Source of the DNA: Candidatus Bathyarchaeota archaeon
Lineage (GTDB): Archaea; Thermoproteota; Bathyarchaeia; RBG-16-48-13; JAGTRE01
Direction of reading: 5' to 3'
Length of the DNA: 36,122 bases
Assembly (NCBI GenBank): GCA_018396415.1
Contig: JAGTRE010000012.1
Coordinates: 1-36,122, forward strand
Position numbers and translations under genes: made by a program. The notes under the pieces are model-generated. The model searched no databases, was not told where the DNA came from, and saw only the letters and a program-made list of their open reading frames with translations. Numbering within the stretch: the stretch's first letter is position 1; each line of letters begins with the position of its first letter. Below, piece after piece: positions 1-12,513 of this stretch.

Positions 1-73
1 GGAACGTAAGCCTCCGGAGAAATCTAATTTCAGGGTAAGCCGAAGGTCGGGGGTTCAAATCCCCCCGGGCCCG
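1..73 (+). tRNA. 3' part of an interrupted tRNA (anticodon outside window)
   Basis: Positions 49-53 and 61-65 form a perfect G5/C5 T-stem around the loop TTCAAAT. They are followed by the acceptor strand CGGGCCC (66-72) and discriminator G73; no CCA is encoded. GCCGA at 39-43 followed by AGGTC fits the 3' anticodon strand and a five-base variable loop. Bases 1-37 do not supply the matching acceptor, D arm or 5' anticodon strand. The gene is therefore interrupted by an intron reaching past the window edge, or this is a tRNA 3' half left by an integration event. The isotype cannot be read. Confidence 0.75.
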
Positions 74-141
74 CTCTTTAATAACACTCGTATATTTTGG
101 AGTCTATAGTAGCGTAAAGGATAGGATAAAAATTTAGAACA

Positions 142-2424: not shown

Positions 2425-4380
2425 CTACATCCTCGCAGGCGCTTCAATTCCAAGAAGTTGAAGAGCATTTCGTAATGTAATTCGAATCGCATCAACTAAA
2501 GCCAGTCGAGCTACTCGAAGTGTTGGCGTCTCCGCTTGGATGACCGGGAGAGCTGCATAGAACGAATTAAAGCAGCTGGCTAAGTCGTTGGCATACTCTG
2601 CAATTGCATTAGGCTTCAGATTTTCAGCCGCTTCTATAAAGACTTCGGGGAATCTTCCAATTTTTAATATGAGACTCCACTCCAAGGGATGAATTAAGGT
2701 GCTTAGGTCTGCTTCACTGGCATCCACTTCTTCGCCTGCCTTCCTCAATATGTTACAGGCTCGGGCGTAAGCATACTGTATAAAGGGTGCACTATTTTGC
2801 TCGAAGTCTAACACTCGCTCCCAGTTGAAAATGACGGACTTTATCGGTTCAACTGAGATCAACGAATATTTAATGGCTCCAATGCCTACTATGTCAGCTA
2901 TTCTGCGGCGTTCCTCCTCAGGTAAATGCGGTGAACGTTTTGCCACCTCATTATATGCCCTCTTAACCGCTTCGTTAATGACATCGTCAAACGTTATGTA
3001 CCTTCCACGGCGACCAGACATCTTATACCCAGGCAGTTCAACAAGTCCAAAAGAGAAATGAATCTGGTTCTGAGCCGCTTTGACGTAACCAAGAACACAT
3101 AAGGCGATTTTGAGTTGCAATTGTGCCAGCGATTGCTCCGCGCCAATTACGTTGATCACTTGATCACTCTTTTCAAATTTTTGAAGGCTGTAAGCGATGT
3201 CGCGTGTTGTGTACAGGGTTGTACCATCAGCTCGGGTTAGAGTAAGTGAAGGCACGCTGTAGCCTTTCATGATATTTAAAACCGGCCTCAGTCTAAGTTC
3301 ATTGACAGCTTTCTCAGCATCTAACTCAAGAACTCCCCCAGCTTCAAAAACAAAGGGCGTCCGCTTAAGTTGTTGCACAATTTCGTTTACTTTGCCACTC
3401 CATACCAAGTCGCTTTCCCAGTCCCACTGGTCAAATAAAATTCCGACTCTACTCAAAGTTTGTTTAAACCCTTCTAGGCAAAGATTACTTACTTTTCTGA
3501 AGAGTTCCTTTGTGCTTGCCTTTCCAATCTCATATTCTTGTATTAGCCTGTTGATGCTCGCCTCTGGATTCGGATCCTTGTTTATCTCATCGAGCAGTTT
3601 GCTAAACATATCTGGATATTTCTCTTGGAGTTCCGCAGCTGCTGCAATCCAGTCATCAAGTTCAAATTTCAATCTTTTGACGGTTTCTTCTTGATCTTGC
3701 ATTGCTTCGCGTTGCTTAATTTGTTCTTTAAGGTTGCGAATTTCAGTTAGACAACTGGTTATGGCGTAAATCCAGCCGATAAAGTGGTCAGGCTTAACAT
3801 GTGGGTCGATCTCTGGACTTCCAAGTTTTTGATAGCCATATGCAATAATCGCAATTTGGCGTCCCATATCGTCAATGTAAAAGTGTCTTGAAATCTTGTG
3901 ACCACGAGCCGCCAATATTCTTGCTAAAGCATCCCCCAAAATTGGATTTCTGGCGGTTCCTATGTGTAATGGATGAATAGGATTTGCACTCGTGTGCTCT
4001 ACAATAATCCTAAGCGGATGATCTGTTTTAACGTATCCATAATCTTCATCTAATCTTCTTGCGGACTCTACCGTTAACTTAGCAAATTTCGATCGGTTTA
4101 AATGGAAATTAATGTAGCCTCCTACTGCCTCAGCTTTCTCACATATTTTAAAGTCAGTCATCTCAATCGTTGAAGAGATTCTTTTTGCCAGTTCCGTTGG
4201 GGTTGTCTTCAGAGTTTTAGCTAATTCGAAACAGATAGATGAAGCCAGTTCCCCGTATGCTGGGCTTGGGGGGACTTCGAGGGACCTTTTAACTTCAACT
4301 CTTTCAGTAAGCTTTGACAAGGACTTCATAAGAATACGTTCGCACTCTTCTCGAAACTCTCCAAAGGGATTGGTAGACAA
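2425..4380 (-). CDS. argS: Arginyl-tRNA synthetase
   Basis: A class I synthetase of 651 residues that charges tRNA-Arg with arginine. In order: an N-terminal Add-1 domain (PAYGELASSICFELAK), the HIGH motif as HPLHIGTARN (HIGT at 139-142), a long helical insertion at about 190-300, the signature KMSGRRG near residue 460, and a C-terminal anticodon-binding DALR domain (SAPFIQYAYARACNI onward). The TTG start at 4380 gives the expected N-terminus (NPFGEFREECERIL); GGAGG lies about eleven bases upstream. It is about 100 residues longer than compact ArgRS, chiefly from the insertion. The gene stands alone. Confidence 0.96.
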   Translation of the reverse strand: MSTNPFGEFREECERILMKSLSKLTERVEVKRSLEVPPSPAYGELASSICFELAKTLKTTPTELAKRISSTIEMTDFKICEKAEAVGGYINFHLNRSKFAKLTVESARRLDEDYGYVKTDHPLRIIVEHTSANPIHPLHIGTARNPILGDALARILAARGHKISRHFYIDDMGRQIAIIAYGYQKLGSPEIDPHVKPDHFIGWIYAITSCLTEIRNLKEQIKQREAMQDQEETVKRLKFELDDWIAAAAELQEKYPDMFSKLLDEINKDPNPEASINRLIQEYEIGKASTKELFRKVSNLCLEGFKQTLSRVGILFDQWDWESDLVWSGKVNEIVQQLKRTPFVFEAGGVLELDAEKAVNELRLRPVLNIMKGYSVPSLTLTRADGTTLYTTRDIAYSLQKFEKSDQVINVIGAEQSLAQLQLKIALCVLGYVKAAQNQIHFSFGLVELPGYKMSGRRGRYITFDDVINEAVKRAYNEVAKRSPHLPEEERRRIADIVGIGAIKYSLISVEPIKSVIFNWERVLDFEQNSAPFIQYAYARACNILRKAGEEVDASEADLSTLIHPLEWSLILKIGRFPEVFIEAAENLKPNAIAEYANDLASCFNSFYAALPVIQAETPTLRVARLALVDAIRITLRNALQLLGIEAPARM

Positions 4381-6905: not shown

Positions 6906-6961
6906 ATTGTGAGCTATAAGGCTTAAATTCATGGTATTATTATTCCCATGTGGTGAATAAC

Positions 6962-7237
6962 GTGGAAGATGCGGTTACTGTCGACAAGCAGGGAAGACTG
7001 GTATTGCCTTCCCACATTCGCGAGGTTCTGGGTTTAAAGGAGGGGGGGCATGTGTCCATTAGGCTAGACGGCTCACGGATAATTCTTGAGCCTGTGTCTA
7101 AGGACCTTAACGAGAAGGTTCGAGAATGGGCAAGTTTTGCCCTAAGCCTTAAGGCAGAAGCCTTTACGGAGGAGTTAAAGGAAGGCTGGAAGTGGATGAG
7201 CCGTGAATACGCGAGGAGAAAGCTTGGCCTATCCTGA
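6962..7237 (+). CDS. AbrB/SpoVT-type antitoxin
   Basis: A 91-residue DNA-binding antitoxin. Residues 1-47 form the swapped-hairpin AbrB fold (VTVDKQGRLVLPSHIREVLG, then GGHVSIRLDGSRIILEP). The remaining helical region (ASFALSLKAEAFTEELKEG) would bind and neutralise the toxin. GTG 6962 is preferred because GGTGA precedes it by five bases; two earlier GTGs (6950, 6953) lie within or before that site. It overlaps the PIN toxin gene by 14 bases, the usual coupled antitoxin-toxin order. Autoregulation is expected for the family. Confidence 0.85.
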   Translation: MEDAVTVDKQGRLVLPSHIREVLGLKEGGHVSIRLDGSRIILEPVSKDLNEKVREWASFALSLKAEAFTEELKEGWKWMSREYARRKLGLS

Positions 7238-7700
7238 GGGAGTTCTAGACGTAAGCATACTCATACCTGCATGCTTCGAAAACCCACTAAAAGAGTATAG
7301 CATAGCCTTCCTTTCTGAAGTGTTAACTCAAAAGAAGCGGGTTGCATTACCTGTCTCCGCTGTACTGGGGACTTACCACATAGCTACACGATATCTCCGA
7401 GTACCTAAGATAGCTGTAAAGAAAATACTGGAGGGGATTCTAAGATCAGGGTCACCTGCCCTCTACCCGCACATCACCCCTCAAATTGCATTGGACGGGA
7501 TAGATTATGCGGCGGCCTATGATATTGAGTCCTGGGATGGATACCTAATCGCGCTCACAAGAAGTCTAGGGACCACGGTGATATATTCGCTCGACCAAGA
7601 ACTCTCAAAAGTCAAAGAGATAATTGTAGCCAACCCATTTCCCGAAGACAAGGTTAAACAATACCATGAATTTATAGACGCGAAGCTACGTGAGGGATAA
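7224..7700 (+). CDS. PIN-domain toxin (VapC-like ribonuclease)
   Basis: A 158-residue PIN protein. Acidic residues of the metal site are Asp9 (VLDVSIL), Asp105 (SWDGYLIAL) and Asp124 (YSLDQEL). The usual helix-2 Glu is not where expected: the segment reads PVSAVLGTYHIATRYL, so a nearby residue must substitute or activity is altered. TTG 7224 is chosen because GAGGAG at 7213-7218 has ideal spacing; an upstream GTG at 7203 would overlap the antitoxin more. It is translationally coupled to the AbrB-type antitoxin. Intact, unlike the vapBC remnant 2 kb away. Confidence 0.8.
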   Translation: MAYPEGVLDVSILIPACFENPLKEYSIAFLSEVLTQKKRVALPVSAVLGTYHIATRYLRVPKIAVKKILEGILRSGSPALYPHITPQIALDGIDYAAAYDIESWDGYLIALTRSLGTTVIYSLDQELSKVKEIIVANPFPEDKVKQYHEFIDAKLREG

Positions 7701-11296: not shown

Positions 11297-12190
11297 TCAA
11301 TTGAAAGATAAGAAAGATGCTTTGAAAGCTTTGCAAGAATGGTAATTTTTCAGTTTCAAAAAGGTAGGCTTGGCTTGCATGGCTTTCATTATTACTCTCC
11401 CATCAGGCAGGGTCATCATAGGTTCCCATCCTTCTTCCACGAACTTCTCAACCTCCTCGGTCTCGGAAACCGTCAGCAGAGGCACAGCCTTGAGGTAATC
11501 TTCCAAAAGCTCCTTTTCAGTTGGGCGATAGTAGCTGTATGATATGCCAGTGGAATGTCCCATTAAAGTCTCAACGTTAATGGGCTTCATCACTTGTTCT
11601 GCCCTAGTTTTGAAGAACTTTCTCAATGAGTGGATGGAGAACTCATGCCTTTTCTTCTTCTCTTTTCGCAAGCCAAACTTCCACAGCATATCCTCGAACA
11701 GCCGCTTAACTCCCGTTACCTGCAACCTCTTTGGCTTAGTAGCTTCGCCATTCTTCTTTTTCGTTGTCTGCCATACATACCTTGCCAGCGGTGAGTCTTT
11801 GTTTATCTTCTCGCCGTGTGCCGCTCTCAATTCCATATATTTCTGAAGTTTTTCATAGGCTTCAGGTGTGATGAACGTAAAGTATTCTTCAGGGTCACCA
11901 GCATAGACCCTTAACTTAGCTGCCACAACGTTGCCTTCACACTTTATAGGTTCAACATGCCCCCAGTTAAGATTCTCCCATGCACCGATTCGAATTCCGC
12001 TGCTTGCTATCGTAAGTAAAATTGCTTGAAACCGTAGGTCAGAGTTGGTGAGCAATAGCCTCAGTTCGTCCATAGTTGGGGCCCTATCTAAAGCATACCT
12101 TCTTGAGCTGGGAAGCATTCGAGATATCTTCTTCCAATTGATGTCAGTAATGTCGTTCATTTCCAGAAGTAGTTTGACTGGTTTCTTCAC
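11297..12190 (-). CDS. Tyrosine recombinase (integrase), catalytic part
   Basis: 297 residues from GTG 12190 holding the catalytic domain of an archaeal tyrosine integrase: Arg67 (SSGIRIGAWENL), His187-x-x-Arg190 (IHSLRKFF), His212 (LMGHSTG) and the nucleophile Tyr220 or Tyr221 (SYSYYRPTEKEL). It catalyses site-specific recombination between element and chromosome. The N-terminal core-binding part is not in this frame; it lies just upstream in another frame after a one-base slip. It reads away from the tRNA-Arg gene beside it, which is the obvious target site. A C-terminal extension of about 70 residues follows the Tyr. Confidence 0.88.
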   Translation of the reverse strand: MKKPVKLLLEMNDITDINWKKISRMLPSSRRYALDRAPTMDELRLLLTNSDLRFQAILLTIASSGIRIGAWENLNWGHVEPIKCEGNVVAAKLRVYAGDPEEYFTFITPEAYEKLQKYMELRAAHGEKINKDSPLARYVWQTTKKKNGEATKPKRLQVTGVKRLFEDMLWKFGLRKEKKKRHEFSIHSLRKFFKTRAEQVMKPINVETLMGHSTGISYSYYRPTEKELLEDYLKAVPLLTVSETEEVEKFVEEGWEPMMTLPDGRVIMKAMQAKPTFLKLKNYHSCKAFKASFLSFN

Positions 12191-12293
12191 ATTGCCACGG
12201 TGCTGGGTTCAATTTCCTTATTTAAAGCCCGTTCCTTCTGCTTCATTAAGTACTCTGTTATAGTCTCCTGAGCCCACTCTAGCTGTAAATTTA
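12187..12293 (-). pseudogene. Frameshifted N-terminal part of the integrase
   Basis: A frame open from inside the tRNA gene reads INLQLEWAQETITEYL, then MKQKERALNKEIEPSTVAM and TGA at 12187-12189. The catalytic frame begins two bases away with KKPVKLLLEMND. Adding one A in GCAAT (making GCAAAT) joins them as EPSTVANVKKPVKLLLEM, a natural integrase linker. The gene has therefore lost one base, or the catalytic part is translated separately from GTG 12190. Confidence 0.6.
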
Positions 12294-12407
12294 TGGCGGG
12301 CCCGCGGGGATTCGAACCCCGGACATCCAGCCGGTTAAACCGGTCTCCGGCTCCGCAGGCCAGCGTCCTAGTCCTGACTTTCCGAACTTCCTCTAGACGA
12401 CGGGCCC
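12294..12407 (-). tRNA. tRNA-Arg (GCG) with two putative non-canonical introns
   Basis: Acceptor GGGCCCG (12407-12401) pairs with CGGGCCC (12304-12298); discriminator G and an encoded CCA (12296-12294) follow. The anticodon stem CTGGC/GCCGG (12363-12359, 12351-12347) encloses CTGCGGA, anticodon GCG at 12356-12354. T-stem CGGGG/CCCCG and loop TTCGAAT are intact. The gene is about 37 bases too long. One insert of about 17-19 bases sits in the D loop (within 12391-12369). A second of about 20 bases (12343-12324) sits in the variable loop, leaving AGA-TC when removed. Extra introns at unusual sites are known in TACK archaea. The 3' half probably also served as attachment site. Confidence 0.85.
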
Positions 12408-12513
12408 ACAATAAGCGAAATAGTTTCCTTGCTAAAAAGGTCTTCCATACATATTAGTTATGCAAAATATTTTTCGGTAGTCTCGAGATTACAAAATAGA
12501 GGCGTTGAACTGA

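Follow-up and report, generated by a model that had tools for sequence, protein, structure and literature searches.

A tRNA-Arg(GCG) gene with two predicted non-canonical introns in an exceptionally intron-dense Bathyarchaeia-class genome

Introduction

Short tRNA introns at many positions, including 45/46, occurring two or three to a gene, bounded by bulge-helix-bulge or relaxed motifs and accompanied by a splicing endonuclease (EndA) of the (alpha-beta)2 type, are described from the Thermoproteales and particularly from Pyrobaculum (PMC4090602, PMC8450103, PMC3218864). The published record for intron density is held by Pyrobaculum calidifontis with 71 introns in 46 genes (1.54 per gene), the figure for the Thermoproteales overall being 0.84 (PMC8450103). 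Archaea that have non-canonical introns carry EndA of the (alpha-beta)2 form (PMC4090602), and a crenarchaeal-specific loop and its lysine have been linked to a broad substrate range (PMC6379350). For a single gene, the precedent is the tRNA-Thr(GGU) of Caldiarchaeum subterraneum, which has non-canonical introns at 24/25 and 45/46 and is the integration site of a mobile element; an SSV-type integrase arrangement at a tRNA gene is described in the same work (PMC3293823). No dedicated paper on the tRNA introns of Bathyarchaeia was found in the literature searched.

The tRNA-Arg(GCG) gene described here has ordinary archaeal tRNA introns of this well-known kind, with a close published precedent, and lies in an exceptionally intron-dense genome. 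It resembles the Caldiarchaeum gene in having two non-canonical introns, one of them at 45/46, and an adjoining recombinase gene, but its other intron is at 15/16 and not at 24/25. The genome shares with the Thermoproteales all of the features listed above, with a density equal to that of P. calidifontis. It differs in belonging to the Bathyarchaeia class and in a recurrent 15/16 site, which is absent from the open-ended list of positions in PMC4090602.

The tRNA-Arg(GCG) gene and its predicted product

The window, that is the whole stretch of 36,122 bp analyzed, is one entire contig (C12) of a genome of 1.39 Mb (G000; 30 contigs, ~96% complete). The tRNA-Arg(GCG) gene was located at 12294–12407, where a preliminary description had placed it, on the minus strand, with its 5′ end at 12407 and an encoded CCA at 12294–12296. 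The Rfam tRNA model gave the unspliced gene 19 bits against a cut-off of 29 bits, while ARAGORN found the gene with a misplaced 5′ end (12298–12388). When both inserts were taken out the arms folded and a complete cloverleaf was obtained, in agreement with the earlier claim that the gene is a standard tRNA only after their removal. An Rfam mascRNA match at the gene was rejected, as it reflects the T arm and acceptor only. The phage records searched in the follow-up gave no match.

On the minus strand, orthologue alignment places exon 1 (tRNA positions 1–15, GGGCCCGUCGUCUAG) at 12393–12407, and it is followed at 12378–12392 by intron 1, an insert of 15 nt at 15/16 in the D loop (AGGAAGUUCGGAAAG) with a relaxed, hBH-like motif. 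Exon 2 (positions 16–45) spans 12345–12377 with the anticodon GCG at 12354–12356. Intron 2 (20 nt, ACCGGUUUAACCGGCUGGAU) occupies 12325–12344 at 45/46 in the variable loop, and exon 3 (positions 46–73) was assigned to 12297–12324 from the fold of the gene minus its inserts. Sequence inspection also indicated a possible TATA-like element (CTTTTTAGC) on the same strand at 12431–12439, with its center lying ~28 nt ahead of the tRNA 5′ end.

The predicted spliced tRNA reads GGGCCCG UC GUCU AGUCAGGACUA GGAC G CUGGC CUGCGGA GCCGG AGGUC CGGGG UUCGAAU CCCCG CGGGCCC G CCA, and the sequences expected across the D and V junctions are GTCTAGTCAGGACTAGGAC and CCGGAGGTCCGG, respectively. In the proposed pathway the precursor would fold locally at each junction, into a strict-like bulge-helix-bulge at 45/46 and a relaxed hBH at 15/16. 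A heterotetrameric (alpha-beta)2 endonuclease would then cut between nucleotides 2 and 3 of the bulges and a tRNA ligase would join the exons. The resulting body would measure 76 nt, or 79 nt once CCA is counted, its D loop being AGUCAGGACUA and its V loop AGGUC. The sequence, the orthologue comparison, the fold and motif analysis and the finding of genes for both EndA subunits are the observations made here; cleavage, ligation and expression are predictions.

This was the sole gene with a GCG anticodon found in the 30-contig, ~96% complete assembly, the existence of another having been named beforehand as a possible refutation. It completes the arginine set beside tRNA-Arg TCG, CCT, and TCT and a partial gene for CCG with which the contig opens. 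In eight window genes, CGU and CGC account for 80 of 4362 codons. The locus is very probably a functional single-copy tRNA-Arg(GCG) gene in which two non-canonical archaeal introns of 15 and 20 nt occupy 15/16 and 45/46, respectively.

Comparison with orthologues

The tRNA-Arg(GCG) genes of relatives from the same class were compared. The D-loop insert is absent in nine orthologues (G002, G016, G018, G021, G043, G048, G050, G051, and G053), all of which have a D loop of 11 nt of the form AGNNNGGA(T/C)(T/C)A; this is AGNNNGGATTA throughout, but AGTCAGGATCA in G048. The V loop has 5 nt in every compared orthologue except the window gene. Removal of AGGAAGUUCGGAAAG and ACCGGUUUAACCGGCUGGAU gives the window gene orthologue-like loops: with the 15/16 insert out the D loop has 11 nt as in the insert-less genes, G18G19 included, and the spliced V loop, AGGUC, is that of G033, G002, and G018, which have no V-loop intron. 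The D-loop insert of the preliminary description is thus real by this comparison, but it measures 15 nt at 15/16 and not 17–19 nt.

Homologous 15/16 inserts were found in two other genomes, with 25 nt in G033 and 37 nt in G014, and both keep CGGAAA beside the 3′ junction despite their unequal lengths. The first of these, Candidatus Hecatella orcuttiae JdFR-11, is of the same class, which its own classification identifies as Bathyarchaeia; its gene differs from the window gene in the length of its D-loop intron and in having no 45/46 intron. The gene of G048, which has no D-loop intron, has a D arm (GTCTAGTCAGGATCAGGAC) identical letter for letter to the one predicted for G014 after splicing. 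The 45/46 intron is absent from all orthologues seen. By inspection, two introns are also present in the tRNA-Arg(GCG) of G014, G018, and G048, partly at different sites.

Structure of the exon-intron junctions

All registers were scored for an exon helix, a central helix of 4 bp between the 5′ exon end and the 3′ end of the intron, two bulges of 3 nt and an inner intron helix. Among the six registers tried for a 20-nt removal at 45/46, a single one gives 4/4 pairs in the central helix with an inner helix of 5 bp, and shuffling of the insert reached the same motif quality in 0.02% of trials (p ~2e-4). The central helix is formed by exon CCGG and intron CUGG, with bulges AG/A and AU/G and an inner helix of the CCGGU/AACCGG type. 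The 45/46 junction is a bulge-helix-bulge in one register only. The outer helix has just 1 bp, and the motif is for this reason relaxed on the exon side. The CCGG-UUUAA-CCGG hairpin previously noticed in the insert is the inner helix of this motif. The insert of about 20 nt first proposed is real relative to the orthologues, with exactly 20 nt, but its register was off by one (12344–12325 is correct), and the V loop left behind is AGGUC instead of AGATC, as only the AGGUC register fits the junction pairing.

The preliminary description had suggested a search for bulge-helix-bulge motifs at both junctions, and that at 15/16 is the weaker. U11C12U13 is paired with GGA, giving 3/4 central pairs with G10-A unpaired, the inner helix has 2 bp, and the shuffle p is ~0.025. 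The 25-nt intron of G033 has the same arrangement with an inner helix of 4 bp (p ~0.002), and the 37-nt intron of G014 is arranged as in the window gene. In the MFE structure of the unspliced RNA the D-arm junction motif is not seen, and one automatic parse scored a different D register higher. A 24-nt removal in the D loop forms a good helix but takes away the D loop itself and was discarded on that ground. The 15/16 junction thus rests more on comparison than on the fold of this single gene.

Splicing endonuclease

The genome codes for two EndA-family proteins. The alpha subunit (193 aa) aligns over its full length with the catalytic subunit of Aeropyrum pernix (3p1z_B, E = 3e-40) and keeps the catalytic His, which is Ala in the aligned 3ajv_B chain; the Lys of its PKPR motif aligns with A. 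pernix K44 in the crenarchaeal-specific loop. The second PF01974 protein is the beta subunit (178 aa), which is without the catalytic His. The genes are unlinked, lying in the regions C10:24216–24470 (alpha) and C2:137318–137575 (beta); the latter is ~1.4 kb from a two-intron tRNA-Arg(CCT) gene. Judged by these alignments, the genome carries a matching endonuclease predicted to be of the (alpha-beta)2 type, with a catalytic alpha subunit bearing the loop lysine and a non-catalytic beta subunit, which answers the earlier call to identify the enzyme type.

Integrase remnant and surroundings

A tyrosine integrase is represented by its C-terminal portion at 11297–12190 on the minus strand, with matches to phrog_1 and phrog_216 and a weak one to XerA_Arch. 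The adjoining 12191–12297 (minus strand) is an out-of-frame stretch that resembles, by weak alignment, a more upstream portion of this integrase, its frame being open through the tRNA gene before a frameshift. Most related integrases in the class exceed the fragment at 11297–12190 in length, with 377–520 aa in many of them. Together the two segments suggest an int(C) remnant of SSV type fused to the tRNA gene at its 3′ end. An integrated SSV-type element would have a split integrase gene, the C part overlapping the tRNA 3′ end and the N part lying with a second att at the far end. As in SSV-type archaeal integrases, the integrase frame here leaves the tRNA gene at its 3′ end. It is frameshifted, however, no N-terminal part was noted and no second att was found: the window has none, the assembly offers none beyond other tRNAs, and searches of both for a displaced tRNA 3′ fragment found none. 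The proposal that the gene served as an integration target is consequently backed by the remnant, but not by a second att site. For the Caldiarchaeum tRNA-Thr, intron gain with the element was shown by strain comparison, whereas the window gene has only the remnant, with no att duplication.

A T arm at 44–65, considered as an att copy, was rejected, as it closes a further tRNA-Arg gene, likewise intron-bearing, that is truncated where the contig ends. The contig starts inside this gene (1–74, plus strand), the anticodon of which is CCG by inspection and the 5′ part of which is missing. An arginyl-tRNA synthetase gene (2425–4380, minus strand) lies ~2.4 kb from it and ~8 kb from tRNA-Arg(GCG); among the matches of its product is phrog_15344 (E = 3e-136), a family annotated with function unknown. 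At 6950–7700 (plus strand) a MazE/AbrB-type antitoxin gene overlaps a PIN-domain gene, a VapBC-like pair. The GC content falls to 0.35 at 10–11 kb, near the integrase remnant.

Alternative explanations

The D-loop insert could survive splicing and give the mature tRNA an enlarged D loop, only the 45/46 insert being an intron. The D-arm motif is weak alone and ARAGORN tolerates odd D arms, both of which would agree with retention. However, the insert has 15, 25, or 37 nt at one site in different genomes and is missing in nine orthologues, its removal restores the orthologous 11-nt D loop with G18G19, and the 15/16 site is used in three further tRNAs of the genome; retention is accordingly considered very improbable. 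Somewhat less improbable, though still quite unlikely, is a splice at other D-loop sites, as in the preliminary description, with 17–19 nt removed, AGAGGACUA left and a junction reading AGTCAGGACTA. This would also leave G18G19 and a legal D loop, and direct AGGA repeats permit several registers, but 17-nt registers give at most 2/4 central-helix pairs and the resulting D loop of 9 nt is seen in no orthologue. Non-canonical introns at 15/16 and 45/46 are the best reading, in keeping with the orthologues, the junction structures, the endonuclease type and the lack of another GCG gene among those found. The earlier suggestion of a double intron therefore holds, with corrected splice sites.

The remaining alternatives involve the mobile element. 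That the gene is a pseudogene, disrupted by or left from an integration, might be argued from the integrase remnant abutting its 3′ end and from scores below the cut-off of standard models. Against this, every stem is intact after splicing, no other GCG gene was found while CGU and CGC codons are in normal use, and low scores are common among the tRNA genes of this genome because of their introns. Pseudogene status is unlikely, and as a full account of the locus it is the least credible of those weighed. A question of origin, compatible with splicing, is whether the 45/46 intron was brought by the integrating element through recombination of an intron-bearing attP with an intronless attB, as in the model published for the Caldiarchaeum tRNA-Thr (PMC3293823, PMC8371274). 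The integrase remnant adjoins the gene on the side that holds the intron and all sequence 3′ of it, and no orthologue seen shares the intron. On the other hand, neither a displaced intronless 3′ fragment nor a second att copy was found in the window or assembly, and the 45/46 intron in the tRNA-Ala(GGC) of the same genome may likewise speak against it. This origin is regarded as unlikely, if the most plausible of the alternatives.

Intron density across the genome

tRNA loci of the genome were retrieved by Rfam search and parsed by a custom search in which up to three introns were removed and the tRNA and junctions were both scored. The survey covered loci L009–L037 and L078–L084 without L029, and L027 was left out of the intron count because its parse failed. 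Approximately 54 introns were obtained in 35 parsed genes (1.54 per gene), the counts for L035, L079, and L082 being uncertain. Two or three introns are present in at least 19 of the 35 genes and none in 3, so two introns per tRNA gene are normal for this genome. The description of double introns as uncommon thus fails locally, and the Caldiarchaeum gene is a precedent elsewhere (PMC3293823).

The introns occupy many positions, including 10/11, 15/16, 22/23, 29/30, 30/31, 37/38, and 45/46, the last of these recurring in tRNA-Ala(GGC). Introns at 15/16 are also found in tRNA-Met, tRNA-Ile, and a probable tRNA-Ser, and in each of these exon positions 11–13 pair with the 3′ part of the intron, with differing base combinations. 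It is tentatively proposed, with the odds judged to be against it, that the 15/16 D-loop introns (Arg, Met, Ile, and probable Ser) form a recurrent set of the Bathyarchaeia class, with a central helix of three pairs (exon 11–13, position 10 usually unpaired).

Several tRNA types went undetected by the Rfam search, among them a long interrupted gene, L095 (C4:109330–109700, minus strand). It is heavily interrupted and has ATGATGA and CTGA boxes in its middle, and on account of these it is probably a tRNA-Trp with an archaeal C/D-box intron.

Significance

What is worth keeping from this analysis is the genome-wide intron density in a lineage of the Bathyarchaeia class together with the recurrent 15/16 site. 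tRNA introns can be as dense outside the Thermoproteales as they are in Pyrobaculum, and many such interrupted tRNA genes are lost or misplaced by standard tRNA finders. The tRNA-Arg(GCG) orthologues, with zero, one, or two introns at four sites, are a natural set for the study of intron gain and loss, and the short relaxed introns of this genome are material for studying endonuclease substrates. If the 15/16 class is real, it would represent a form of EndA substrate relaxed beyond the published hBH motifs, in a lineage matching the top known density.
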